From: a virus
DNA length: 39,669 bases
Direction: 5' to 3' (one strand)
Virus record (IMG/VR): IMGVR_UViG_3300046504_000062
Location: 1 to 39,669 of that record
Below, one piece after another: positions 5,354 through 39,669 of the stretch (the first letter of the stretch is position 1; the number at the start of each line of letters is the position of its first letter). A program made the translations under genes and the position numbers. Below the pieces are notes generated by a model. The model was given only the letters and a program-made list of their open reading frames with translations, did no database searches and was not told the origin of the DNA.

Positions 5354-5381
5354 TTGACAATCCTGTCTAAAATGATATAGT
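5354..5381 (+). promoter_or_regulatory. promoter of the tRNA / RNase P RNA island
   Basis: TTGACA (5354-5359) and TATAGT (5376-5381), 16 bp apart. Transcription should begin at about 5388-5391, on or next to the first base of the first tRNA, so this tRNA would need little or no 5' trimming. Confidence 0.72.
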
Positions 5382-5390
5382 TTAGGTATT

Positions 5391-5476
5391 GGACTGGTTG
5401 GGAGCGGGTATCCCGATGTGTTCGCTAAACACATGGTCTGAAATATGGCTCATAGGTTCGAATCCTATCCTTTCCG
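5391..5476 (+). tRNA. tRNA-Ser(GCU), irregular
   Basis: 86 nt with a long variable arm, as in tRNA-Ser. The T arm is ATAGG-TTCGAAT-CCTAT (5452-5468) and the D stem is GGGA/TCCC. The anticodon region holds GCT followed by AA, fitting Ser. Irregularities: the acceptor GGACTGG/CCTTTCC has two mismatches, and the anticodon loop is either seven bases with C at position 33 or nine bases on a shorter stem. CCA is not encoded. It may be a functional odd tRNA or a decaying one. Confidence 0.72.
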
Positions 5477-5479
5477 CTT

Positions 5480-5647
5480 ATGGCACACAAAAAGAAATCA
5501 AAAGGGACTGGAACTTATGCGTCTCAACATCATTACGAGAAAAATAAAGTCCGTAAATTAGAGACGTATATTGCACATAATCCAAATGACTTGGAGTCAA
5601 TGAAAAAATTACAAGCGCTAAAAGAAGAGTGGAAGAGTATTTTATAA
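5480..5647 (+). CDS. basic 55-aa protein locked between two tRNAs
   Basis: ATG 5480 lies three bases after the tRNA-Ser discriminator base, and TAA (5645-5647) is directly followed by the first base of tRNA-Pro (5648). The product starts MAHKKKSKGTGTYAS and continues as a charged helical peptide ending in EEWKSIL. It is lysine-rich and without membrane segments. There is no Shine-Dalgarno. Cleavage at the tRNA ends would release an mRNA consisting of little more than this frame. Function unknown; nucleic-acid binding is plausible from the charge. Confidence 0.65.
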   Translation: MAHKKKSKGTGTYASQHHYEKNKVRKLETYIAHNPNDLESMKKLQALKEEWKSIL

Positions 5648-5720
5648 CAGGATGTAGCGAAGTTGGTATCGCGCACGGCCTGGGACCGTGAGATCGAGGG
5701 TTCGAGTCCCCCTATCCTGA
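5648..5720 (+). tRNA. tRNA-Pro(UGG)
   Basis: A regular 73-nt cloverleaf: acceptor CAGGATG/TATCCTG, D stem GCGA/TCGC, anticodon stem CACGG/CCGTG with loop CCTGGGA, T loop TTCGAGT. The anticodon is UGG for Pro. Position 33 is C instead of the near-universal U, and one T-stem pair is A-C. No encoded CCA. Its 5' end abuts the stop codon of the preceding mini-ORF. Confidence 0.88.
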
Positions 5721-5721
5721 C

Positions 5722-5748
5722 AAAAAAAGTCGTTCGAGACCGAACGGC
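5722..5748 (-). terminator. leftward intrinsic terminator
   Basis: On the minus strand an 8-bp stem (5741-5748 with 5729-5736, four-base loop) is followed by exactly seven T (5728-5722). This matches the seven-T terminators of the late leaders. It would stop leftward transcripts running out of the late arm before they read antisense through the first tRNAs and the replication genes. Confidence 0.6.
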
Positions 5749-5759
5749 TCACCTATAAT

Positions 5760-5872
5760 CAATAACTTGGCTGTGCACGGCATAACCAGCAATTGAGTGA
5801 GCGATAAGGTGTTCTACAGCTGCAATAATGCTGGGCTCAGTGAAAGCTTAGCTTAACGATTTCTCACTCAAT
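5760..5872 (+). ncRNA. second structured RNA of unknown class, abutting tRNA-Gly
   Basis: No reading frame is evident here. ATTGAGTGAG (5792-5801) pairs perfectly with CTCACTCAAT (5863-5872) over 10 bp, enclosing about 60 nt with smaller stems, for example CAGC/GCTG near 5817-5834 and AAGC/GCTT near 5844-5855. GCTG/CAGC upstream (5770-5790) gives another stem. The long stem ends at 5872 and tRNA-Gly starts at 5873, so RNase P cleavage would form its 3' end. TATAAT at 5754-5759 could start it, though a -35 box is weak. It does not match tRNA, tmRNA or a hammerhead core by eye. Confidence 0.55.
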
Positions 5873-5943
5873 GCGTTCATAGCGTAATGGCAACGCCTCT
5901 GTTTTCCAAACAGAAGATGAGGGTTCGATTCCCTTTGGATGCT
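5873..5943 (+). tRNA. tRNA-Gly(UCC)
   Basis: A 71-nt cloverleaf: acceptor GCGTTCA/TGGATGC with G-U pairs, D stem GCGT/ACGC, anticodon stem TCTGT/ACAGA with loop TTTCCAA (anticodon UCC), T arm GAGGG-TTCGATT-CCCTT. U33 is normal here. CCA is not encoded. An ORF starts three bases downstream. Confidence 0.92.
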
Positions 5944-5946
5944 CAT

Positions 5947-6072
5947 ATGAAATTTCGTCGCAAAAAATCACAGCGACAAGTGCGCTGTACATTGTGTACT
6001 CCGTATAAATGGATGGGCAACAGTAAACAGAGATTAAAGAAGAGAGATTTAATAAATTTAGAAAAAAGTTGA
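5947..6072 (+). CDS. small basic protein (41 aa) after tRNA-Gly
   Basis: ATG 5947 follows the end of tRNA-Gly by three bases and TGA (6070-6072) falls inside the -35 box of the next promoter. The 41-residue product is strongly basic (MKFRRKKSQRQ), has one CTLC pair and an aromatic YKWMGN segment. A longer frame begins inside the tRNA at 5887, but that would translate tRNA sequence and is unlikely. No Shine-Dalgarno is present. Nucleic-acid binding is a guess from charge. Confidence 0.5.
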   Translation: MKFRRKKSQRQVRCTLCTPYKWMGNSKQRLKKRDLINLEKS

Positions 6073-6097
6073 CAATACTGTTTTAGTTGGATATGGT
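6069..6097 (+). promoter_or_regulatory. leaderless-type promoter for the nuclease
   Basis: TTGACA (6069-6074), 17 bp, TATGGT (6092-6097), then six bases and ATG at 6104. The predicted transcription start coincides with the A of the start codon. No Shine-Dalgarno exists. Confidence 0.65.
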
Positions 6098-6103
6098 TTA
6101 ATA

Positions 6104-6493
6104 ATGAACCTGTCCAGCTCACAATATAAAGGCGACGTGGCAAAGTCCATGGCCATATCAACATTTACAAAAATGGGATTTAACATCGGAATGCTATTAA
6201 CCGAATCTGCTCATTATGACTTGCTAGTTGATACATTAAAAGGAGTCAAGAGAGTTTCTATTAAATATTTAGGAAGTAAAAATGGAATGTTGGATTTGAG
6301 AAGTATACACTCAAATTCATCTGGGTATGTAATTAGAAAAACAGAAGAAAATGAATATGATTGGTTGTATATCTATACAAAAGATGGTAAAGAATATTTA
6401 TATGAGGAATGTCTTAATGGGAAAAGTTCTATAAAGCCTAAAGAAGAAAAAATAATTGGAAGGATTGAGCAATTGGTCGCTCAGCAATCTTGA
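6104..6493 (+). CDS. PD-(D/E)XK endonuclease, homing/PDDEXK_5-like
   Basis: A 129-residue protein with the start of this fold, YKGDVAKSMAISTFTKMGF, then SAHYDLLVD (catalytic D39) and VKRVSIKY, where K54 fits the last catalytic lysine; the usual Q/E two residues earlier is S. The layout resembles Pfam PDDEXK_5, which includes I-Ssp6803I-like homing enzymes. Free-standing nucleases in phage tRNA islands often promote spread of the island. Its 3' end is also the 5' half of tRNA-Ser(UGA): codons from 6458 onward double as acceptor, D arm and anticodon stem. Processing of that tRNA would cut the mRNA before its stop codon. The promoter gives a leaderless mRNA. Confidence 0.75.
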   Translation: MNLSSSQYKGDVAKSMAISTFTKMGFNIGMLLTESAHYDLLVDTLKGVKRVSIKYLGSKNGMLDLRSIHSNSSGYVIRKTEENEYDWLYIYTKDGKEYLYEECLNGKSSIKPKEEKIIGRIEQLVAQQS

Positions 6494-6543
6494 AAATTGC
6501 CGTTCGAAAGGACATTGAGGTTCGAGCCCTCATCTTTCCGCCA
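6458..6543 (+). tRNA. tRNA-Ser(UGA) with encoded CCA, overlapping a CDS
   Basis: Acceptor GGAAGGA (6458-6464) pairs with TCTTTCC (6533-6539), discriminator G, then CCA (6541-6543). D stem GAGC/GCTC, anticodon stem GCAAT/ATTGC with loop CTTGAAA, variable arm GTTC-GAAA-GGAC, T arm TGAGG-TTCGAGC-CCTCA. This is a clean type II serine tRNA. The first 36 nt lie inside the nuclease gene, and the anticodon TGA (6491-6493) is physically the stop codon of that gene. Confidence 0.92.
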
Positions 6544-6592
6544 GGACAGCTTGGAAGCTGGTAGTCTTGCTTACATAAAGAACTTCCATCAT
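6544..6592 (+). other. 49-nt spacer with tRNA-like 5' half
   Basis: Between tRNA-Ser(UGA) and tRNA-Cys. It contains a GGACAGC...GCTGGTAGTC stretch that resembles an acceptor plus D arm, but no anticodon arm or T arm can be closed. It may be a tRNA remnant or just spacer. Confidence 0.3.
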
Positions 6593-6665
6593 GGCCCGTT
6601 GGTGAAGTGGAAACACGGGAGTCTGCAAAACTCTAATCGCAACGGTTCGATTCTGTTACGGGCCT
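6593..6665 (+). tRNA. tRNA-Cys(GCA)
   Basis: 73 nt. Perfect acceptor GGCCCGT/ACGGGCC, D stem GTG/CAC, anticodon stem GGAGT/ACTCT with loop CTGCAAA (GCA), T arm AACGG-TTCGATT-CTGTT. No encoded CCA. Confidence 0.94.
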
Positions 6666-6671
6666 CATAAT

Positions 6672-6746
6672 ACGCGCGTAGTTCAGCGGTAGAACGCTTC
6701 TCTGATAAAGAAGAGGTGCATGGTCCAACTCCATGGGTGCGTACCA
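6672..6746 (+). tRNA. tRNA-Ile(GAU)
   Basis: Acceptor ACGCGCG (6672-6678) with GGTGCGT (6736-6742; last pair mismatched), D stem GTTC/GAAC, anticodon stem CTTCT/AGAAG with loop CTGATAA (GAU), T arm CATGG-TCCAACT-CCATG. The discriminator is A6743. The following CCA (6744-6746) shares two bases with the P1 helix of the RNase P RNA, so tRNA 3' end and ribozyme 5' end meet here. Confidence 0.9.
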
Positions 6747-7040
6747 ACATCGAGACAAGGCCCCGAAAGGGGAGGAAACTCCAGACTCCAAGAGCAACCT
6801 GCCTCAATAAAATGAGGGCACCGAAAGGTGACAGTTTAGAGCAACAGTGACGAATCTAGCGGTGAATTATCCTGTGTATACATGGGGTGGGCATTCAAAC
6901 CCATAATCAAGTGCTAGGGTGAAACGGGCAATCCTCGGTGGAGCAAGTCCCGAGCTGATGATAAGGCTGACTCGGCCAAAGCAGAGGCGGACGCATTAGA
7001 TAGATCTTGTCATAAAACAGAATCTGGGTTACGGGTGTTG
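6745..7040 (+). ncRNA. rnpB: RNase P RNA (catalytic subunit)
   Basis: About 296 nt. P1 is CAACATC (6745-6751) with GGTGTTG (7034-7040). P2 is GACAAG (6754-6759) with CTTGTC (7006-7011). P3 is CCCC-GAAA-GGGG (6761-6772). The universal 5' core motif GAGGAAACTCCAGACTCC (6772-6789) differs from E. coli M1 at few positions. P4 forms as AC-(U)-CCAGA (6778-6785) with TCTGGGT (7023-7029), keeping the bulged U; E. coli has AG-(U)-CCGGG with CCCGGCU, so several pairs show compensatory change. AGGGTGAAACGG (6917-6928), GGAGCAAG (6940-6947) and ACAGAATCTGGGTTACGG (7017-7034) are the other conserved blocks. The RNA should remove tRNA 5' leaders with a host or phage protein subunit; no protein gene is visible. 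It is short because helices between AGGGTGAAA and GGAGCAAG are missing. Confidence 0.93.
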
Positions 7041-7043
7041 AAT

Positions 7044-7118
7044 ACTAACGTGGCTAAGGGGTAACAGCGCTTCTCTTATAAAGAAGGTCACACGTAGGTC
7101 CGAATCCTACCGTTAGTA
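7044..7118 (+). tRNA. tRNA-Ile(UAU)
   Basis: 75 nt. Perfect acceptor ACTAACG/CGTTAGT, D stem GCT/AGC, anticodon stem CTTCT/AGAAG with loop CTTATAA (UAU, reading AUA), T arm GTAGG-TCCGAAT-CCTAC, where the T loop starts TC instead of TT. No encoded CCA. It begins three bases after the RNase P RNA. Its anticodon stem is identical to that of tRNA-Ile(GAU), which suggests duplication of one tRNA-Ile around the ribozyme. Confidence 0.9.
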
Positions 7119-7120
7119 CA

Positions 7121-13508: not shown

Positions 13509-16500
13509 GGTCTCCCCAATCCTGATAAAGCTTTAATTGATGTTCTGAGTTTTGGGGTAGTGATACCTGATTTAGGCATAGAAAGCATTGATGGTGCAGT
13601 TGGTCTTTTAGTTCTAATACTACTTGCCGCTGTACGACGTGCTGGAAGTAATTTAGATCCAAGACCAAAGTTGGTACCTAATTTTCGACTAGCAACCTTA
13701 TATGATGGTGATTTTGCAGATGTATAATCAAATTGTGCTTTAGAAGCAGCGCCAGCTGGAAGCATTTTGTATCCTCCAGTCTTAGAATCCCATCCTACGC
13801 GCTTCAAATAAGCTCCCTGATCTTTGCTCAAGTATTGTTCATCGACCAATTTACCGATCAAAGTGTCAGTAAGTAATGGCTTTCTGGTTCCCTCTGAAAC
13901 ACGTCTCATTGAGACAAGTGAAGCAAGTAAATCTTCTCCTTTTAACCCGTTAATCTCTGTTTGAATTTCAGATAGCTGTACATCATCTGGAAGGCTAGTT
14001 TTATCATCGTAGAGTAGAGCTTCTTCTGTAATAGAATGTTTATCCATCGCAGTCTGAAGAGCATCTCCTCCTAGTCCTGTACCATCAAATTTATTGCGTA
14101 GCGCGCGAACATAAGTGAATTCTTTTGATCGAGCAAGCATCCCCTGAGCATCAGCTGAAAGACCTTTTTGTGGAATAGCCATGTCTTTAGTCAAGAAATT
14201 CTCATAGGCACTATCAAAGTTAATACCGTATTTTTCAATAGCTCCTTGGATTTTATCTCTAGTTTCCTGTGTGGTAGCCGTATCATAGGCGGTGAGCAAG
14301 GTGTCAACTTGTTTCTTCTGCACATCAAGGGCTGCGTTCATTTGAGTTTTAGTGCTTCCTGTCGCGACTTTTGCTCCACCCATAATTGCATCCAACTCTT
14401 TCTGAGCTGCATTTTTAAAGTAATTAGCCTGAGATGTAAGTTGATTTTCCTGCAAAACGTCTTTGTATGGTTGTTCCATTGCTGGATTAGCCTGACCAAG
14501 TGACCATGGGAAAATATAATCAGTGATATTTCGTTTTGCTTCCTGTCCATAACTATCTGTGATAGCTGGGAGATTCTTACTTGCCCATGGAATATTTTTA
14601 GTTAATCCAGCGATGAATCCACTGGCTTTTCTAAATGTAGGATCAACAACGTGGGTAATATCCCCCATCAAGCTATTAAGTGGCATTAATTGTCCAGCGG
14701 TGAATGCTAGGTTGCTTGCGGTGCTATAATCAACGTTTCCTTCAAATGTTTGCACAAATCCACCAAGTCCAGACAATGGAGTTGATTGTGACCACTGATT
14801 AAGTGAGGACATCATAAGTGAGAATACTTTTTGTCCAACTGAATCGGTTAATGCGGTTTTACTATCAGCAAAATAATGTTTGTAAGCAGCGGCCATACCA
14901 AATGGAAGAGCCCATGGACCTAGATAAGCAAAAGGTACCCATTGCTGTCCAAAAGGAGTATCTATTTGGAATGAGAATGGTTTTCTACCTGTATCATAGA
15001 ATTTAGTTTTCTCTTCTGGGTCAGTTGGGGCGGCCCAAGTGGTGTGTCCTGCAAGAGCCATCATGGCTCCAAATCCAACGACAGCGGCTCCAACACGAGC
15101 CTTTGAATATTGTTCCCCAGGGTCAGCTGCGCCAATGGCGGTGAAAGGTCCAACAATTGGGTTATATTCCATGCCCATTTTTGCGACAGCCATAGGAACA
15201 CGAACGAACATAGCGAACCATCCAATTGGTGGAAATGCCGTTCTTCCTTTTAATACCCACTCAGTAAGACGATCCATCGTTTGTAATAACTTGCCTTGTC
15301 CACTTTTTCCCGTAGTATCTGTTGGAGATTTATATAATAGATCAGATGCTAGAATTTTAGCTTTAGCTAGGGCTTGAGCTTCTGGCATACCAAGAGATTG
15401 AAGTCTTGCGTATTCCGCATTTCTAATTAAGGTGACAAAGAATTGATCAGCGCCTTCAAGTGCGCGACCAGCAACAGTCAAATATCCAGGGACTCTTTCT
15501 GCCATACCCTGATTAAAGGTAGCAAAGTCTCCAGAGACATCAGATTTGCCCATCGCTGCATTTGGATTTGATACTGTCTTTAAGAAGGCTTGTGTGCCCT
15601 CCTGCATAGAACCAAAGAGTGAGCGATAATAGATAGGAACTTCTTTGAAGAAACGTGTTTTCTCTTTGCCCGTCAAACCGCTTTTTACTGCATCCCATGT
15701 GGCCATATCAAGCACCTGAAGTGGTTTAACTATTGTGGCGTTGAATGCGTTATTTGTGATGTTTCTTAAATGGGTTCGAATACCTGAAAGGGCATTCTGG
15801 TAACGATATGCATCGATAATGGTTCTGGCTGGAGTTGGAATTGGTTTGAGAATTTCCTGCATCAAGTCATGTGTCTCTTTTGCTCTAAGATTCTCATCTG
15901 GAATAAGAGAAATATCTCCCATGCGCTGTTTAATTCTAGCGACCATATCCTCTGACAATGAAAGTTTCCAATTCTTATTACCAGTTAATCTCTGTGCTGC
16001 TCGTCCAATGCTGAGATTTTGCATCTCATTTGCTTGGTCATAAATATCACGAGCCCATCCTACCAATGAATCTGGTGTTGAGTAAGACCATAGATGATAA
16101 AACTGAAGGGCCTGAGCTGCTGGTGTAGCTTTTCGAGCCATTGCGTTTCCAACCTCGATGGCCTGATTTTTGATAGACTCATAGTCAGCAAGTCTTCCTG
16201 CTGCTTTTGCTTCTGCGGCTCTACGTTGTAAATCTTGGAATAATTCCAAACCAATACCTTGAATTTCATTTGAAAGGGGAACTTCGTCAGAGAGCACCTG
16301 TTGCATAGAACCTGCATAATCTTTTTTAACTGCTTCTTTTCCATATTCAATACGACCCGCATCTGAGGTCATGTCATACACTCCAGAAACTCCAGCGCGA
16401 ACATCTGGATTAATTTCTGGGTTAGATCTGATAGAAGTGACTAAACCACGCTCAGCTTGCCCTGCCACTGGCTTTTCCATTGGTGGAGGCTGAGTGGGAG

Positions 16501-27790: not shown

Positions 27791-28861
27791 TTCCTCGCAT
27801 CTTTCTTCAACGAGTGGAATATAATTATAGTGATTTGGTTGATGTGAAAGACGATCAGGCGCCATGGCCCAGGGAAGATCTCTTATGGGTAAATCAAGTC
27901 TCTTTTGAGGGTAATTTAGAGAAGTCATAATGCGTTCAGTTTCTCGCTTATAAAGGAAATCCTCTCCATATTTTGCTCGATATTTGTCTAAAACTTTAAT
28001 ACATGACTTAGGGAAAAATGATCCCCACCCTAATAAGGCAATCTTTTTGTCTTTATACGCTTGGATATGTCCAGGTTTCATGGCACATGTGATTCCATCT
28101 CCCGCTTCTACATACAAAGCTTCAATTGGAGCAATACAATCATCATCCTGATAATAAATCCAGTCAAACTTAGCCTTCTGAAATAACTCTTGCTTTCGAT
28201 GTGGGCTATCGCAGTGGGTCATAACTAGAATTTCTCCAAATGGCCGCATAGATACTTCATGTAAAATTTCCTGTGGATAGATTGCGTCCCTTGTGATAAG
28301 ACAAGCGGAAACATTAGATATGACAAAGGATGGCTTTTTAAAAAGATAAAAATAGAGCTGTCCATCCTCTTCGATGACCTGACGAATAATTGGCGTACCG
28401 AATATTGATGGATCAAACTTTCGAATCTTTACGTGGGTATCAATTGGATCATCATATTCATAAGCTGTGATTGCTAAATACTTGGTCCATTTGGACTGTA
28501 ATTGGTCTAATAATTGGTCTAAATCATGGTCATCGAGAACATGAAATAGCACGTCAACACACAGTAGAAGGTCGGCGCAAGGAACTGCATTTATATCAGT
28601 GGTAAAGGTCGCGCGTGGGTATAATTCATTATTTCTTTTAATGATTACATCTGAAATATCCTGCCCGACATATGATGCATTTGGATATAGTCGTAGAAGA
28701 TTTAATCCAAAATTAAAGTCGCCACATCCTACCTCAGAAATAGACTGAATATCTAGCCCTTCTAACCATTGTAGTTTCTGGGTCAGTTGATTATCATAGG
28801 AACCATATCCACTATTCCATCCTTTAGAATAGCGCATGTTCCAATAGTCTTTAGCTATCAT
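27779..28861 (-). CDS. fused methyltransferase-glycosyltransferase
   Basis: About 360 residues in two parts. Residues 1-180 are a class I methyltransferase (SEVGCGDFNFG at 42-52, YVGQDIS, CVDVLFHVLDD). From about 200 a GT-A type glycosyltransferase follows, with WIYYQDDDC near 236 as the metal/sugar-nucleotide motif and the LLGWGSFFPKSCIKVLDKY block. The second half matches the partial protein at the right window edge. ATG 28861 overlaps the previous stop as ATGA. It probably both adds and methylates a sugar of a surface glycan, or modifies two sites of one product; the target is unknown. Confidence 0.8.
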   Translation of the reverse strand: MIAKDYWNMRYSKGWNSGYGSYDNQLTQKLQWLEGLDIQSISEVGCGDFNFGLNLLRLYPNASYVGQDISDVIIKRNNELYPRATFTTDINAVPCADLLLCVDVLFHVLDDHDLDQLLDQLQSKWTKYLAITAYEYDDPIDTHVKIRKFDPSIFGTPIIRQVIEEDGQLYFYLFKKPSFVISNVSACLITRDAIYPQEILHEVSMRPFGEILVMTHCDSPHRKQELFQKAKFDWIYYQDDDCIAPIEALYVEAGDGITCAMKPGHIQAYKDKKIALLGWGSFFPKSCIKVLDKYRAKYGEDFLYKRETERIMTSLNYPQKRLDLPIRDLPWAMAPDRLSHQPNHYNYIPLVEERCEELTK

Positions 28862-29925
28862 AATATTGCAAAATCTGGGATAGAGGTGATCCACTTCCCT
28901 TTGAATTCTATTTCTCTTTTTTTGAAATAGTCTACAAAACCATAAGGAAATACCCAGAGATAATCACATTCTGGAACCTTATCTATAATAGGTACTCCAG
29001 TTGCTATGGTAAATTTACCAAATTTATCCTTATTAACGTCTACAACTCCAGGCAATGAAACGCCATAATACTGGAGAATGGTATTCATTTTGGTGGAAGC
29101 GCCATACCCATAAACGTCATGGTCCTTTAAAAATTCAACCATTTTTTGTTTATTGGTTTCCATGCGTGAGAAGAATGCTTTAAGCTCTTCGACTGTGTAT
29201 CTTTTCTCCTCAAATGGAATAGAACCAAACTTTAAGTGTCGCGCGTATACTCGGTATGATCCTCCATTAATATCATTCTTTTTGACATCAAATATCTCCA
29301 GCCCATTCTGCTCAAATAAAGTGACTAGGGATTTATATGAATAGAATTCAATATGCTCGTGACAGATATTTCCCACGTCATTATTTTCGATCATAGGATG
29401 AAGCGTCATGAGTTGAGCGATAAAAACTCCATCTGGATTCAAATGGTTCTTTATATTGATAATAAACTTATTTGGATCTGGAAGATCATAAAGCATGGCA
29501 ATTGCAGTAATAGTATCAGCCATCAGTGACCCATCATAGTCTTCCCAATAGGCATGAATCCAATTGAATTTTCCAGGTTGAATATCTGATGGATCAACAC
29601 ACCACTTATTAGGAGCCGTTGAGTGAGTAAGTAAAGTACCATCGTTTCCACCAATATCAATATGAGTAGACCCTTTAACTTCAGCGGCGATTTCCTTGAG
29701 ATTCTCTACAATGACAGGATTAAGAGCTGAACGATACCAATAGTGCTTATATAATTTCTCTCGAGGAGCTAAGTGACCCAACTGCAATAAAGTACATTTT
29801 TGACAGTATACAAGGTCCAATTCATATTTATCTCCTGGTTCAGGTTGTTCAGTGAAATCGCTAATAGCAATCTGACCAAGCGTTCCAATTTCTACTACTG
29901 GTTCTTTACATATTCTACAGTTCAT
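28858..29925 (-). CDS. sugar C-methyltransferase (NovU/TylCIII type)
   Basis: 355 residues with the three-part layout of sugar C-methyltransferases. An N-terminal zinc-binding region is seen (CRICKEP ... YCQKCTLLQL). A Rossmann methyltransferase core follows (THIDIGGNDGTLL, then CHEHIEFYS with the catalytic His/Glu/Tyr set). A C-terminal domain starts at about DVYGYGASTKMN. Family members methylate a carbon of NDP-sugars, such as 3-C-methyl deoxyhexoses. ATG 29925 overlaps the preceding stop as ATGA. It is part of the coupled glycan cassette. Confidence 0.88.
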   Translation of the reverse strand: MNCRICKEPVVEIGTLGQIAISDFTEQPEPGDKYELDLVYCQKCTLLQLGHLAPREKLYKHYWYRSALNPVIVENLKEIAAEVKGSTHIDIGGNDGTLLTHSTAPNKWCVDPSDIQPGKFNWIHAYWEDYDGSLMADTITAIAMLYDLPDPNKFIINIKNHLNPDGVFIAQLMTLHPMIENNDVGNICHEHIEFYSYKSLVTLFEQNGLEIFDVKKNDINGGSYRVYARHLKFGSIPFEEKRYTVEELKAFFSRMETNKQKMVEFLKDHDVYGYGASTKMNTILQYYGVSLPGVVDVNKDKFGKFTIATGVPIIDKVPECDYLWVFPYGFVDYFKKREIEFKGKWITSIPDFAIL

Positions 29926-30743
29926 AGCGGCCACTCCTTTGTTTGTGAGAAATGAAAATAAGCGATTTGATTCCCAAAGAATTTGTGCGCATTCTTCCAA
30001 TCTGGATGTGCCACATCTTCAATAAGTTGCCAAAGACTTCCATCGTCTTCAATTCTCAATTTTGGTACTGGACGATGTATTTCTAATCTGTCATGACCAT
30101 GAATATCAAAATATTTAGGATATCCATATCTGACAACCCCTTCTTTTTCTATATCTAACATTAAATCGCTAAACCAATGCTCGTCGGTAGCATAGAGAAA
30201 ATGATCAGCGCCAATGCCCATGCAGCCTGGACAGGGAGTTTGCACAAGCATAGTCTCCCATTGTGGTAATCTTTTAAATAAGTCAGTAATTTCTTTCTTA
30301 TTTCTCCAAAGACAAAAATTACCGTTTATCGCATGTAAATCATCTGACCAAACATCAAACTGATCCAGTTTAGAATCTGGAAGAAAGTGATCTAATCTTC
30401 CAACGACACAATCAAGACCAATAACTCCCCAAAAATCAAACTCTTTTAAATAATCTTCAAACACGGCGCCGAGAGTAATAAGAAAATCAGTCACATGATA
30501 ACTTGGGACATCAAGTGGTGTAATGAAAAGCTTGGGATTGACTCCAAGTTTTTCCTCTACTGTTTTATTGAATCCATTAATATCCATTTTTACTATCTCA
30601 ACATTCCCTTTGGACTGGAAATCATTAGGGGTAAATATTTTCCAATACCAACCATACTTTTCCAAATGCTGCACGTGATCTATATATTGCTGTGTCCATT
30701 TATGTGGACTACCAAACTGGAGAATTATAAAACATTTTTTCAT
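29922..30743 (-). CDS. glycosyltransferase, DUF6625-like GT-A
   Basis: 273 residues. FWGVIGLDCVVGRLDHFLPD, then a GNFCLWRN segment, resemble the G-x-D-x-D-x-x-x-G-D-[IVL] and G-H/N-F-x-L-x-R-N blocks of DUF6625-type glycosyltransferases; here the D-x-D is D-C-V. The C-terminal part is aromatic-rich and might bind an acceptor sugar. It shares ATGA overlaps with both neighbours. Donor and acceptor are unknown. Confidence 0.68.
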   Translation of the reverse strand: MKKCFIILQFGSPHKWTQQYIDHVQHLEKYGWYWKIFTPNDFQSKGNVEIVKMDINGFNKTVEEKLGVNPKLFITPLDVPSYHVTDFLITLGAVFEDYLKEFDFWGVIGLDCVVGRLDHFLPDSKLDQFDVWSDDLHAINGNFCLWRNKKEITDLFKRLPQWETMLVQTPCPGCMGIGADHFLYATDEHWFSDLMLDIEKEGVVRYGYPKYFDIHGHDRLEIHRPVPKLRIEDDGSLWQLIEDVAHPDWKNAHKFFGNQIAYFHFSQTKEWPL

Positions 30744-31216
30744 TTGACCGCCTTATAAATTACATGAATCGATTGAGGAATTTTAACACCATATTCTTCC
30801 TGCCAATTTACTTCTTCAGCTAATACTTTCTTGAACTGTCCAACAAACCCCTCATAGACATGATCTAGTTTATATCTATAACTATCTATATCAAAGTGTT
30901 CAAACTGTTGTAAATTCCAATGGCTTAGGTGACTAGGAGAACCAAAGTCATTACGACTCCCCGCATTAGGAATGTAGTGTTCCATAGTGCCACCATCCTT
31001 AAGCATACGCCAAATTTCATTAATAACTGTAACCTTTGCTTCTGGAACAATGTGTTCCATAAAATCTTGCGTATATATCTCATCCACGCTACTAGTTTCT
31101 ATTGTAGGTAATCCTTTGGTAACGTCCGCGACGATATCAATTCCATCAAAAGGATACATATCTACGTGTAAAAATCCTGCTTTTCTATCACTGCCAGCTC
31201 CTAAATATATTTTCAT
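30740..31216 (-). CDS. SAM-dependent methyltransferase
   Basis: 158 residues: MKIYLGAGSDRKAGFLHVDM (SAM loop and acidic residue), SSVDEIYTQDFMEHI and EIWRMLKDGGTMEHYIPN, a Methyltransf_11-like core. Such proteins in glycan cassettes often O-methylate sugars. It is ATGA-coupled on both sides. Confidence 0.85.
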   Translation of the reverse strand: MKIYLGAGSDRKAGFLHVDMYPFDGIDIVADVTKGLPTIETSSVDEIYTQDFMEHIVPEAKVTVINEIWRMLKDGGTMEHYIPNAGSRNDFGSPSHLSHWNLQQFEHFDIDSYRYKLDHVYEGFVGQFKKVLAEEVNWQEEYGVKIPQSIHVIYKAVK

Positions 31217-31854
31217 AGATCAACTCCTAATAGTTTGGCGTTTGGAACCACACAATGACCTCCAATTGGTCCCTCTTTATGGGTGAGCCAAGGACGAACC
31301 ACGTCTGGTCTGCCTAATTTAACGTATCCATCGTTATAATCCTGATTTGCTTGTTTATAAACATCCTCATAATCAACGTTATGCTTTACGCACCACTCAT
31401 AAATCTCTTTTTCCAACATAATCAAGCGGCCATATTGGGTTGTATCCCATAGTTTAAGTGCTTCAGTGGCCTTCGCTTCTTTAAAAACCTTGGTTTTGAG
31501 CCCTAAATCCGCAAATATTTGGGCAGCTTTGTCTGCATCTTTGCCCCCGAAGTATTTAACAAAGGTTCTAATACCTTTTTCTAGATGTGGATGCACGCCA
31601 CGAATAGGACTATGAACCACTTCTAGGTCATCACAGGTCCCGAACGGGGTAGTTGAATGAACAATAACTAAATCTGCTTCCTCTTTCCATTTTTCTACGG
31701 TAGTTTTAAAGCTATCTGAGTATGGAATACAAATATGAGCCACATCTACGTGTTTCTGATCCCAATTTGACTCATGACGACTATAAAATTGACCACCAAC
31801 GATTGCGTTAATAGCAATTCCTACTTCACCAAGACCGACAGTTAAATGATCCAT
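31213..31854 (-). CDS. short nucleotide-sugar dehydrogenase-like protein
   Basis: 213 residues with VGLGEVG (Rossmann loop), VHSTTPFGT, and a C-terminal PIGGHCVVPN that matches the GGHC cysteine block of UDP-glucose/UDP-ManNAc dehydrogenases. Full enzymes are about 420 residues; the third domain is absent and the second is short. It may be a reduced enzyme, an NAD-binding pseudoenzyme, or work with a partner. It overlaps the deacetylase gene by 13 nt. Confidence 0.6.
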   Translation of the reverse strand: MDHLTVGLGEVGIAINAIVGGQFYSRHESNWDQKHVDVAHICIPYSDSFKTTVEKWKEEADLVIVHSTTPFGTCDDLEVVHSPIRGVHPHLEKGIRTFVKYFGGKDADKAAQIFADLGLKTKVFKEAKATEALKLWDTTQYGRLIMLEKEIYEWCVKHNVDYEDVYKQANQDYNDGYVKLGRPDVVRPWLTHKEGPIGGHCVVPNAKLLGVDL

Positions 31855-32369
31855 TCTGATTTTCCCTTCACCGCATCAAAATGCGCGGCATTAATGCCTA
31901 ACTGAGATTTATAACAAGCCAACACCTTATCTTTTAACTCAATTTCTTCTGGAGTTGGTTTCATTTCATATGTTCCCTTGGTCCAAAGCTCTTCATGGGT
32001 ATAAGTGGTATATTGTTTAACGTAAAAGAACACTTGTTGAGCTAATTTCCCTATTAAATCGTGTTGTACGTGGCCTCCTTGAATCGCTGGAGCGTAAACT
32101 GTATCAAATCCTGAGAATTTCTTGAGTTTATCTGTAATTTCCCACTCACTAACCACATCATCTCTTAATCCTAAACGAATTACGGGGCAATTTAAGATTT
32201 TCATCGCCTCTTTTGTCTCTTCCCAGCGCTGATCTGCGGTAATATTGTCACCTCTATTAAACTGTATCCAACTGTCTGTTACTATAACAACCAAAGGATG
32301 CTCTCTCATAAGGGTATAGGCCCCAAAGAGGGCTTCATCGTCGTTATGTGGTGAGAGAAAAAGCTTCAT
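31842..32369 (-). CDS. PIG-L/LmbE family deacetylase
   Basis: 175 residues with the zinc motif SPHNDDE (H8, D11), QRWEE and GGHVQHD (H100, H103, D104). These enzymes remove acetyl groups from N-acetylglucosamine-type sugars. Here it would deacetylate a cassette sugar. ATG 32369 overlaps the HNH stop as ATGA. Confidence 0.9.
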   Translation of the reverse strand: MKLFLSPHNDDEALFGAYTLMREHPLVVIVTDSWIQFNRGDNITADQRWEETKEAMKILNCPVIRLGLRDDVVSEWEITDKLKKFSGFDTVYAPAIQGGHVQHDLIGKLAQQVFFYVKQYTTYTHEELWTKGTYEMKPTPEEIELKDKVLACYKSQLGINAAHFDAVKGKSEWII

Positions 32370-32713
32370 ATATTATTTATTTTATGTGGACATATCCCAT
32401 AATATGATTTTGTACAATTACAGTTATAACAAAGAATCTGATATCCTTGTGGATAATTATTTTTTCTAATCCATGTATAAAAAGTCTGAGATGAACATTT
32501 CGGATGTATAGCCATTCTTTCTTTTCTACCGCCGCCGTTAATATGATCTAAACATAAGAATTGAAATTCTTTTTCACCACAACAAGCACATTGATTTCCA
32601 TAGTGAGTAATGACATCTATTCTGAGCTTGTTTCTTGTTTTGATTCTGTTTGCTTTTACTTTATCTGGATTTTTATGTCTCCATTTCTTCATTGTTTCTG
32701 TGTATTTATTCAT
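32366..32713 (-). CDS. HNH endonuclease inserted in the glycan cassette
   Basis: 115 residues. CACCGEKEFQFLCLDHINGGG gives the zinc pair and DH-x-N core, and ILCYNCNCTK the second zinc pair; CPH follows. The basic N-terminus could bind DNA. This is the free-standing phage HNH type that acts as a homing or maturation nuclease. It is joined to both neighbours by ATGA, so it sits in the operon without breaking coupling. Confidence 0.88.
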   Translation of the reverse strand: MNKYTETMKKWRHKNPDKVKANRIKTRNKLRIDVITHYGNQCACCGEKEFQFLCLDHINGGGRKERMAIHPKCSSQTFYTWIRKNNYPQGYQILCYNCNCTKSYYGICPHKINNI

Positions 32714-33609
32714 GTTTTTCGTATAAACAAAACGTCACTATTATCAGCTGTCATAGCCATGCGTTTCCATTGATCTGCGTTTTTTTGCCATCTTTCATTC
32801 CCAGCTCCATCACCAGCTAGACGAGCCATAAACAAAATAGCTTCCTTAAAATTAGCGTTTATTATAAGAGCCTGTACACACGCGTCGCGCGCGTCATTAG
32901 GCATCTTCATATTCCAATAGGCTTGAGACATTACAAGAAACGCATCTGCTTTTTCTGCGAGAAAGTTAGAGACTTGGACGTACTTCCCTAAAGTGACAAC
33001 ACAATTTTCATATTCATTACGATAGCTATATTCACGACCTAAATAATAGAGGATACGAGGAGTTGGTCTGGCGGCTGCTTCTTTTTTGAGGATTCGGAAG
33101 GCTCGGTCTGGATCATTTTTATGGGCAGGGCTGAATCCAACCGTAATAGTAACATTACCAATAGAAGATCCGACGATGGAGAGAGTATTGTGGACAGCCC
33201 CCTCCCACCACACCTGTTCACAATTTTTAAATAAACGGGGGAAAAGGAACCATTGATCTTGATTTTCGGCAATGAGTTTAACGTCTACCGCAAGATCTTT
33301 GCGTGATTCTGCAATTGCCACAGCTTCTTTAACAGCGCCGACATCATGAAGAATTTCGTCAGCATCCACAGAGAGGATCCAATCAGATTTACATTTGCTC
33401 TTTGCATGATTTCTCGCTGCCGCGAAGTTATCACACCAAGTAAAATCAGTATAGACCTGATCGGTATATTGTTTAGCGATTTCAATTGTCTTGTCAGTGC
33501 TACCTGTATCTACGATTACTATCGAATCTAGTCCTTTGAGGGATTCTAGACATCGAGGAAGAAGAGCTTCTTCGTTTTTAACGATAAGCACAGCTGATAT
33601 TGTTGCCAT
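32710..33609 (-). CDS. family 2 glycosyltransferase with TPR-like tail
   Basis: 299 residues. Residues 1-100 are the GT2 start (AVLIVKNEEALLPRCLESL, VDTGSTDKT, WILSVDADE with the DxD motif), and the rest resembles WaaE/SunS-type enzymes. From about 190 TPR-like helices follow (YYLGREYSYRNEYENCVVTLGKY). It should transfer a sugar from an NDP donor. It is the first gene of the glycan cassette, behind a leaderless-type promoter. Confidence 0.85.
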   Translation of the reverse strand: MATISAVLIVKNEEALLPRCLESLKGLDSIVIVDTGSTDKTIEIAKQYTDQVYTDFTWCDNFAAARNHAKSKCKSDWILSVDADEILHDVGAVKEAVAIAESRKDLAVDVKLIAENQDQWFLFPRLFKNCEQVWWEGAVHNTLSIVGSSIGNVTITVGFSPAHKNDPDRAFRILKKEAAARPTPRILYYLGREYSYRNEYENCVVTLGKYVQVSNFLAEKADAFLVMSQAYWNMKMPNDARDACVQALIINANFKEAILFMARLAGDGAGNERWQKNADQWKRMAMTADNSDVLFIRKT

Positions 33610-34305: not shown

Positions 34306-37125
<2,820 letters not shown>

Positions 37126-37901: not shown

Positions 37902-37967
37902 CCACGATTGTTTCGTCAGAAAAGCACTATATGATTTTTGTATAACTAACTCACGCTAAATAGTCAA
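37867..37967 (-). promoter_or_regulatory. late leader copy 1 (fibre module)
   Basis: TTGACT (37967-37962, inside the upstream gene), 17 bp, TATACA (37944-37939), TATAGT, hairpin ACGA-AACAA-TCGT (37916-37904), then terminator. The best -35/-10 pair of the family. Confidence 0.75.
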
Positions 37968-38688
37968 GTTTTGGCCAAAGACCTTTAGACATTAATTCCC
38001 TTAGTCGTTCTTCATATCGTCCATTAAAAAGAACATGGGCTTTATCCCATGCTTCCTGACCACCGAAATCTGAGCGGTCATGTCGGACTGTGAAAGATTC
38101 ATTTGTTTGATCGATGTAAAATTTTACTTTGCACGCATCCAATCGCGCACTTGTTTGAAGCTGGTCACCCCCGTAACCAAGAAAGTCCAAATGTTCATCC
38201 ATGCCGCCCACCCCCACAAGCAGATGTCGAGGTATACAACACCAATTCCATTCAGCATCTTGCGGAAAACATTCGTAGAATGAGCCGTACTTTGTTGTTT
38301 TTCTAGGGTCTGCCCAGATACAAATCTCTGGTTTACCCCACTTGCCTTGCGTTTCATATTGATCTCCTACTCCTGTTATGACAGACCCTGGATAATCTTG
38401 GGCAGCGATAACAAATTTTTCTATACCATCTGGATTGATCCATATCCAGTCTTGCAAAGTAATAATAAGTTCGCCCTTTGCCTGACGAAATAACTCGTTG
38501 TACATGCGGTTTAACGTCCAAAATCCACCCTCAAATGTATCTTTTACCCAGATTGCCTCTGGGATTTCTGGATCGAATTTAGATCCTATTAACCACTCGA
38601 AGTCGCTAAACGTTTGTTTAGATAATGCTTTTTGGACGATATCTAAACCGTCTTTACGAATTGTTGGTGTTACTACTGAAACTTGCAT
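37951..38688 (-). CDS. family 2 glycosyltransferase (GT-A)
   Basis: 245 residues: SVVTPTIRKDGLDIVQKAL, LIITLQDW at the metal site and a C-terminal acceptor block (EWNWCCIPRHLLVGVGGMDE ... FLGYGGDQLQTSARLD) like GT2/GT27 enzymes. The classical DxD appears as QDW. It overlaps the preceding gene by 35 nt. The -35 of the late leader lies within its last codons. Confidence 0.85.
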   Translation of the reverse strand: MQVSVVTPTIRKDGLDIVQKALSKQTFSDFEWLIGSKFDPEIPEAIWVKDTFEGGFWTLNRMYNELFRQAKGELIITLQDWIWINPDGIEKFVIAAQDYPGSVITGVGDQYETQGKWGKPEICIWADPRKTTKYGSFYECFPQDAEWNWCCIPRHLLVGVGGMDEHLDFLGYGGDQLQTSARLDACKVKFYIDQTNESFTVRHDRSDFGGQEAWDKAHVLFNGRYEERLRELMSKGLWPKLDYLA

Positions 38689-39244
38689 AAATTTTTCTAT
38701 CGCGTTCTAATGCTCCAGTTTCTAATGTCTTGGCAGCATTTAACGTCGCATTAATTTCATGGTCTATCACAACAGAGTCAACGTGTACAATTCGATCTTT
38801 TATCTTTTGTTCGAAGTCAGCGTCAGAACAGAACATTTTCAATCGTTCGTCTAACATCCCAACTTCATCTAAAATAGTGCGAGGAATAACAAAAAAATGA
38901 CCAGCGAGTAAAGGAACATCTTGTCCTCTCGTGCGCGGACAGCTAACCCTATCTGGAATACACAGATCAAAAATGTCTCCCTTGGCTACACGGGTATCAG
39001 AATTCATCACAGCAATATAATCACCGTGAGACAACTTAATACCCCTATTCACGTTTGCAGTAAAACCCGCATTTCGCGCATAAACATAAATATCACAATC
39101 TTTATAGAAAGTCGTATTATATGTACCGCCATCCTCGGTGACTATAATTTCATCGGCTTTTTGTACCGATATGAGAGCCAAATGAGCTAAGTCCTCTAGT
39201 TCTTTATTAATTGTGTATGTTGGAATGACTACGCTGAGTTTCAT
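38654..39244 (-). CDS. family 2 glycosyltransferase
   Basis: 196 residues: KLSVVIPTYTINKELEDLAH, IIVTEDGG, NAGFTANVNRGI and YIAVMNSDTRV (NSD-type metal motif), followed by VGMLDERLKMFCSDADF. These are the standard GT2 blocks. It starts inside the preceding gene; ATG 39244 is preferred to TTG 39253. It overlaps the next glycosyltransferase by 35 nt. Confidence 0.88.
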   Translation of the reverse strand: MKLSVVIPTYTINKELEDLAHLALISVQKADEIIVTEDGGTYNTTFYKDCDIYVYARNAGFTANVNRGIKLSHGDYIAVMNSDTRVAKGDIFDLCIPDRVSCPRTRGQDVPLLAGHFFVIPRTILDEVGMLDERLKMFCSDADFEQKIKDRIVHVDSVVIDHEINATLNAAKTLETGALERDRKIYASFSSNTNNS

Positions 39245-39669
39245 AGATTTCAAGTGCCCTCTCTATAGATAACTTTTTATATTGTAAATGATCTGGCTGG
39301 TTACAAAGCGCCATATCCCCCGTAGATTCTGAAAATTGAACCATGTCTCCTAAGGTAAAATTAGAATGTTTCCCTAAAAGAATCGAGAATATACGATCAG
39401 TCTCTCTGTAAAAACAATAATCCTGTCCAAATTTCTGTGTATATTGATCTAAAACTGAAATCCATTCTTTTTTAAAGAAGCTCCCCCAACCCATTAAACT
39501 CATTTGTGTGTCTCCAAAAATATTATTGGGAATATCTTTCTCATAATAATCTGGACCCGAGTGAGAAATGCATGTTGGGTCTTCAATGAATTTGTTGTAA
39601 ACATCTCTTAAATTATTGATCATGCAATCGTCGTCCTGAGTGTAAATAATGTAATTCTTTGCCCGCAAG
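39207..39669 (-). CDS. glycosyltransferase, 5' partial at window edge
   Basis: About 153 residues are visible; the frame is open to the window edge, so the N-terminus is missing. IIYTQDDDC is the metal motif, and LMGWGSFFKKEWISVLDQY ... FYRETDRIFSIL matches the second half of the protein at 27779-28861. The two are paralogues within one genome, here possibly without the methyltransferase part. Confidence 0.82.
   Translation of the reverse strand, partial: LRAKNYIIYTQDDDCMINNLRDVYNKFIEDPTCISHSGPDYYEKDIPNNIFGDTQMSLMGWGSFFKKEWISVLDQYTQKFGQDYCFYRETDRIFSILLGKHSNFTLGDMVQFSESTGDMALCNQPDHLQYKKLSIERALEIYETQRSHSNIHN

Follow-up and report, generated by a model that had tools for sequence, protein, structure and literature searches.

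A predicted near-complete A-type RNase P RNA gene inside the tRNA island of a phage

On sequence grounds, the element at positions 6745–7043 (+ strand) of the tailed-phage contig analyzed here is a near-complete, phage-borne RNase P RNA of the A-type. The contig, called the window in the following, is an IMG/VR virus record of 39,669 bases and likely a fragment. Few ribozymes are as conserved as RNase P RNA, which is normally encoded by cells. We propose that the window RNA is derived from Omnitrophota, is co-transcribed with the phage tRNA island, acts with the host protein RnpA, cleaves phage pre-tRNAs and releases itself from the transcript. To this reading as a whole we assign a probability of roughly 0.72; expression and activity are inferred, with no data on either.

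Identity and anatomy of the RNA

With cmscan, positions 1–367 of the Rfam model RF00010 (RNaseP_bact_a) were matched at window 6745–7044 (+) with 78.5 bits and an E-value of 4.1e-24 for the 601 bases searched (6.3e-26 for the whole record). This lies under the Rfam gathering score of 100 bits, and a default Rfam scan thus does not report the window RNA. Its score is low because it is compact and diverged, with P12–P14 and P18 gone. An earlier note on this DNA had proposed a complete RNase P RNA gene, to be checked with Infernal and this model and to be given up if no match exceeded the threshold. The full-length match (E 4e-24) upholds the RNase P RNA; the score does not exceed the threshold, and with P12, P13/P14 and P18 missing the gene is near-complete rather than complete. 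We regard the refutation as formal only, given this E-value and the documented low scores of diverged RNase P RNAs, for which Lui and colleagues lowered thresholds in CPR genomes (PMC8172020). Curated score cut-offs hide genes like this one, as the window RNA shows.

Single-sequence folding without a model recovered P1, P2, P3, P5, P7, P8, P15 and P17. The folding energy was just mildly better than that of shuffles (z −1.87), and the identity of the RNA hence rests on the family match, not on energy. P12, absent from the window RNA in the RF00010 alignment, is near-universal in bacterial A-type RNase P RNA, not exclusive. Its lack does not exclude the RNA from the RF00010 family, as P12-less Omnitrophota RNAs score over the cut-off.

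The 5′ strand of P1 (6745–6751) pairs with 7034–7040, and its first two bases, C6745 and A6746, at the same time complete the CCA of the preceding tRNA-Ile(GAT). The 3′ strand is followed by AAU and then by the next tRNA, so that the 3′ end of the gene possibly extends to this tRNA at 7044. P2 is formed by 6754–6759 with 7006–7011, and P3 is a hairpin of 4 bp (6761–6772; 6761–6764 with 6769–6772) with a GAAA loop. CR-I and the 5′ strand of P4 follow at 6773–6785 (AGGAAACUCCAGA), and CR-V with the 3′ strand of P4 lies at 7017–7031 (ACAGAAUCUGGGUUA). In P4, 6778–6785 pairs with 7023–7029, U6780 is bulged, and 7/7 pairs are standard. The earlier pairing of P1 to P4 by hand, with the bulged U, is thus confirmed, and folding returns P1–P3. 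The stretch 6786–6801 holds the 5′ strands of P5 (6786–6789 with 6940–6943) and P7 (6797–6801 with 6936–6939); the P8 and P9 hairpins occupy 6802–6832. CR-II (6844–6857) reads ACAGUGACGAAUCU, with the Omnitrophota signature ACAGAGACGAGUCU; it contains ACAGUGA, against ACAGAGA in the hosts. CR-III and CR-IV are fused without P12 (6916–6947, AGGGUGAAACGGGCAAUCCUCGGUGGAGCAAG). In the P15-P16-P17 region (6947–6992) P15 and P17 are present and P16 is weak. L15 is GGC (6986–6988), whereas the hosts have GGU, the A-type feature that binds CCA. The exchange might alter CCA recognition.

Sequence change and constraint

The window RNA was compared with three Omnitrophota RNAs by model position, using covariance model (CM) alignments. 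Of its 76 pairs, 68 are standard, and 27 are changed on both sides relative to all pairs of the three RNAs. Outside P4 this count is biased upward, because the CM alignment favours paired states; P4 is the fairer test of constraint, since the model leaves it unpaired. Here we find two double changes relative to the hosts, G-C to C-G at 6779/7028 and G-C to A-U at 6783/7025, in agreement with the earlier observation that the P4 pairs have changed and remain complementary. A separate, sequence-only alignment gave 60 columns with conservation of 97% or more across 29 bacterial-type RNAs; six of them differ in the window RNA, and four of these six are the two P4 double changes. With 54/60 columns kept, the blocks CR-I to CR-V stand in the order claimed before, CR-II with one further change. 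Identity to the host RNAs is about 60%. Preservation of P4 by paired changes is not what one would expect of a dead copy. Activity may nevertheless be reduced or altered in view of the long terminal branch of the RNA, the changed CR-II base and the GGC in L15.

These same features are what a competitor or decoy would show, that is, an RNA that sequesters host RnpA or pre-tRNAs and so depresses tRNA maturation in the host while being a poor catalyst itself. The fast-evolving branch, GGC in L15, ACAGUGA in CR-II and a phage without rnpA would all fit. A mere protein-binding decoy would have no need of P4 and a catalytic core kept via double changes, and the position beside phage tRNAs suits processing; we hence consider a decoy unlikely, though it is the rival that survives best.

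The tRNA island and related phages

The island of the window comprises seven tRNAs, most of which do not encode CCA. The genes for tRNA-Ser(GCT), Pro(TGG), Gly(TCC), Ser(TGA) and Cys(GCA) lie at 5391–6666 (+). They are followed by tRNA-Ile(GAT) at 6672–6746 (+), which encodes CCA and abuts the 5′ end of the RNase P RNA. tRNA-Ile(TAT) (7044–7119, +) begins 3 nt after P1, and its 5′ end is an RNase P cleavage site. The placement of the RNA inside a tRNA island, as first described, is thus confirmed by a tRNA-Ile gene on either side. Abutting genes are common in tRNA arrays, and the spacing of 0–3 nt alone is therefore no proof of processing. Just upstream of the first tRNA, a promoter-like TTGACA-16-TATAGT (5354–5381, +; 11/12, TG before the −10) is a candidate island promoter that remains unproven; promoter-like sites in the island region are no commoner than in shuffles. 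An ORF resembling PD-(D/E)XK endonucleases (6104–6493) lies between tRNA-Gly and tRNA-Ser(TGA), and its end overlaps tRNA-Ser by 36 bases.

The window proteins include collagen-like tail fibres, a CHAP-domain endolysin, UvsX/RecA and a DNA repair exonuclease. A 649-aa protein with a weak tail or virion match has relatives at 37–73% identity in 17 viral contigs, and gene order is common to the window and three related phages (G001, G002, G003), the last of which has a portal-like gene. The claim that the RNA is phage-encoded hence stands on the tail fibre, endolysin and UvsX/RecA genes of the contig and on a syntenic phage family, and what would have overturned it, a bacterial chromosome, is not what we see. 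Among the structural genes, ORFs at 28858–33609 and 37951–39668 resemble glycosyltransferases or other sugar enzymes, a sequence impression that is mostly unsearched; the collagen-like tail fibre at 34306–37125 lies beside this run. G002 and G003 carry 33 and 27 tRNAs, respectively, and in both a tmRNA lies at the margin of a large tRNA island (15224–15601 of locus L038 and 10590–10891 of L044).

Along the window, tRNA-Ile(GAT) is followed by the RNase P RNA, tRNA-Ile(TAT), two small genes and RecA. G003 has these tRNA-Ile genes next to each other, with RecA after them, and in G002 they are separated by 156 nt of unrelated sequence. RNase P RNA is absent from the corresponding site in both, and a permissive Rfam scan of both G002 tRNA islands and the second G003 island found none. 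Nor was one found among the relatives identified by the tail protein or in 14 further RecA relatives, most of them distant. From the absence at the G002 and G003 site it follows that the lineage of the window phage acquired the RNA, or that the RNA was lost around this lineage, and that it is not essential to the phage family, as far as two sampled relatives can show.

Such a distribution would also be left by a functionless passenger, a decaying host copy acquired via transduction or recombination: only one family member has the RNA, the two tRNA-Ile genes sit side by side without it in G003, and the 14 RecA relatives lack it. Decay would lose pairs, whereas at about 60% identity the window RNA has kept 68 of 76 and carries changes on both sides. 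There are no host flanks, the host loci that were checked lie outside tRNA islands, and RNase P RNA recurs in other phages. We thus think a passenger improbable.

Still less credible is a cellular contig or assembly chimera in which the RNA belongs to a bacterium. IMG/VR holds such errors, and several RNase P matches were on contigs without tRNAs or clear phage context. The tRNA order flanking the window RNA, however, matches G002 and G003, RecA follows the island as in G003, and tail-fibre and endolysin genes are on the contig. tRNA, tmRNA and similar RNA genes are frequent integration sites, yet the reading as an attP copy of host rnpB can hardly be maintained for a whole diverged gene, rather than an end fragment, in mid-island position on a contig with no integrase match among about 25 window proteins searched.

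Source of the RNA

A scan of 84,980 species genomes of bacteria and archaea for the P12-less CR-III/CR-IV pattern found it in 25 contigs, of which 23 are titled Omnitrophota, one uncultured bacterium and one belongs to a Syntrophales MAG. The latter is probably a contaminant, because this MAG also contains another RNase P RNA of normal type (332.6 bits). The CR-II signature AGAGCMACAGNGACGARTCT occurred in 31/285 Omnitrophota genomes versus 1/297 of the comparison phylum, the single case being the suspect Syntrophales contig. In a tree, the window RNA, the RNA of a second phage contig (L055) and 28 P12-less Omnitrophota RNAs were grouped with support 91/93; CPR RNAs were not included. The phage branches are long (1.89 for the window RNA and 1.59 for L055; median 0.38), and with such a branch the test of nesting within versus sister position to the Omnitrophota RNAs gave no resolution (p-AU 0.228). 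The tail protein of the window phage was found in none of 384 Omnitrophota genomes searched, so that there is no prophage link to an Omnitrophota host.

An Omnitrophota host as the putative source of the RNA is supported by signature motifs, and the tree points to it, which also meets the earlier idea of host derivation, with the host itself inferred from the RNA. That the phage infects an uncultured Omnitrophota bacterium is likely, not shown, considering the long branches, the unresolved nesting, the CPR RNAs outside the tree and the tail protein result (0/384). With the P12-less Omnitrophota RNAs the window RNA shares the joined CR-III/CR-IV, the CR-II signature and, with nesting unresolved, the branch; in contrast, the host genes have P4 in its canonical pairing, and those whose surroundings were checked are not part of tRNA islands. 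A large Omnitrophota group (loci L108–L130) has P12-less RNase P RNA, while other Omnitrophota retain P12. In each of two Omnitrophota MAGs (G036 C22/C35 and G054 C74/C88) there are two loci for RNase P RNA, the result of either duplication or mixed binning, and the G036 C22 copy lies among chromosomal genes.

RNase P RNA in other phages

The second phage contig (L055 of G026, 40.9 kb) carries a P12-less RNase P RNA of 146.8 bits in a region with 19 tRNAs. Its genes include a T4-type DNA polymerase, thymidylate synthase, a co-chaperonin-like ORF and homing-endonuclease-like ORFs. RNase P RNAs of 261–280 bits were found in G024 (190 kb, with polymerase and tape-measure genes) and G022 (162 kb, with a portal gene), inside arrays of at least 26 and at least 33 tRNAs, respectively, and one of 266 bits among the 27 tRNAs of contig G018. 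The G022 RNA abuts tRNA-Thr on one side and tRNA-Gly on the other, the G024 RNA directly follows tRNA-Thr, and the G018 RNA directly precedes tRNA-Val. These three RNAs form one clade in the tree (100/96). We read them as actinobacterial from a G+C of about 70% and sequence type, without a broad tree. The contigs of this type (loci L025, L023, L019) have 26–33 tRNAs and RNase P RNA near cellular score, and the two large ones share the surrounding tRNA order.

Omnitrophota-type and actinobacterial-type captures would therefore be separate events, and unrelated tRNA-rich phages seem to take over the RNase P step of tRNA processing repeatedly. In its widest form, the proposal is a self-releasing viral RNase P: several unrelated tRNA-rich phage lineages independently captured host RNase P RNA and placed it in tRNA operons, where it is excised by cutting of the neighbouring tRNAs and matures phage tRNAs with the host protein. 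On this generalization we would accept no better than even odds.

Nine further records (G019–G021, G023, G025, G028, G029, G033 and G034) with RNase P RNA and no visible tRNA island were not counted, as they may be bacterial or prophage flanks. A blastn search of INPHARED with the window RNA gave no real match. The INPHARED records matched by other RNase P RNAs seem to be misfiled or of bacterial origin, including a Salmonella contig, an Acinetobacter contig with a prophage beside host rnpB, and unannotated fecal scaffolds. In a record named Acinetobacter phage (CAKLQF020000022.1, L158), a stretch resembling RNase P RNA occurs together with tRNA-Met and ordinary bacterial genes beside an integrase. 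Locus L160 of Microcystis phage MaAM05 (MW495066.1 109323–121518) contains an RNase P-like stretch with fliM, fabI, engB and glyS, and the record looks more like a bacterium than a phage. Locus L157 was a chance pattern match within ordinary ORFs.

Protein partner and proposed mechanism

The records of the window phage and its sampled relatives gave no match to RnpA (PF00825), which is weak evidence because several records are fragments. All 11 Omnitrophota genomes tested have RnpA. As the phage contig and sampled relatives encode no rnpA, we take host RnpA as the partner.

In the mechanism that we favour, RNase P RNA would have been captured from an Omnitrophota host; the identity of the RNA is established here, whereas the donor is read from its signature. 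The RNA would be transcribed together with the tRNA island and may assemble with host RnpA, an inference from the presence and absence of the protein gene. The presumed holoenzyme would then cut the 5′ leaders of the polycistronic phage tRNAs. Cleavage at 7044, the 5′ end of tRNA-Ile(UAU), would also generate the 3′ end of the upstream RNase P RNA, whose 5′ end would arise when tRNA-Ile(GAU) is trimmed at its CCA. Such self-release of the ribozyme from the transcript is inferred from the spacing of 0–3 nt. The benefit could be a capacity for tRNA maturation in keeping with a large load of phage tRNAs, or one that survives host shut-off. Phage control of tRNA maturation, as envisaged in the earlier note, remains an inference.

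Comparison with known systems

Among the papers searched on RNase P and large phages, none mentions an RNase P RNA encoded by a phage; only open-licence papers were covered, and the absence of a report is thus unproven. Phages with RNase P RNA would control the first step of tRNA maturation, widening the known phage translation kit of tRNAs, tmRNA and synthetases. The window RNA may also serve as a host hint for Omnitrophota phages. Its compact form and the double changes in P4, a near-invariant helix, make it a natural case for testing which positions of the core tolerate exchange.

With RF00010 and cellular rnpB, the window RNA has in common P1–P5, P7–P11, P15–P17 with a weak P16, CR-I to CR-V and the bulged U in P4. 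It differs in being phage-borne, in its place in a tRNA island, in lacking P12–P14 and P18, in two replaced P4 pairs and in GGC in L15. Loss of P12 is said to be known only from Mycoplasma fermentans, Thermoproteaceae and two CPR bins (PMC8172020). The window RNA shares this loss with the RNAs of M. fermentans and the two CPR bins, which, in contrast, are cellular; no CPR or M. fermentans genome matched the window CR-III/CR-IV pattern in the scan of 84,980 genomes.

Large tRNA sets are shared with the phage tRNA arrays with tmRNA described for huge phages (PMC7162821) and Streptomyces BE1 phages (PMC5764925), and two relatives of the window phage have tmRNA as well; RNase P RNA is unmentioned in the work on huge phages (PMC7162821). 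Like the putative RNase P RNA of the window, the theta ribozymes at phage tRNAs (PMC10879173) are phage-encoded ribozymes that shape the ends of phage tRNAs. In contrast, they are small, HDV-like self-cleaving motifs on the 3′ side of the tRNA and not a trans-acting RNase P.
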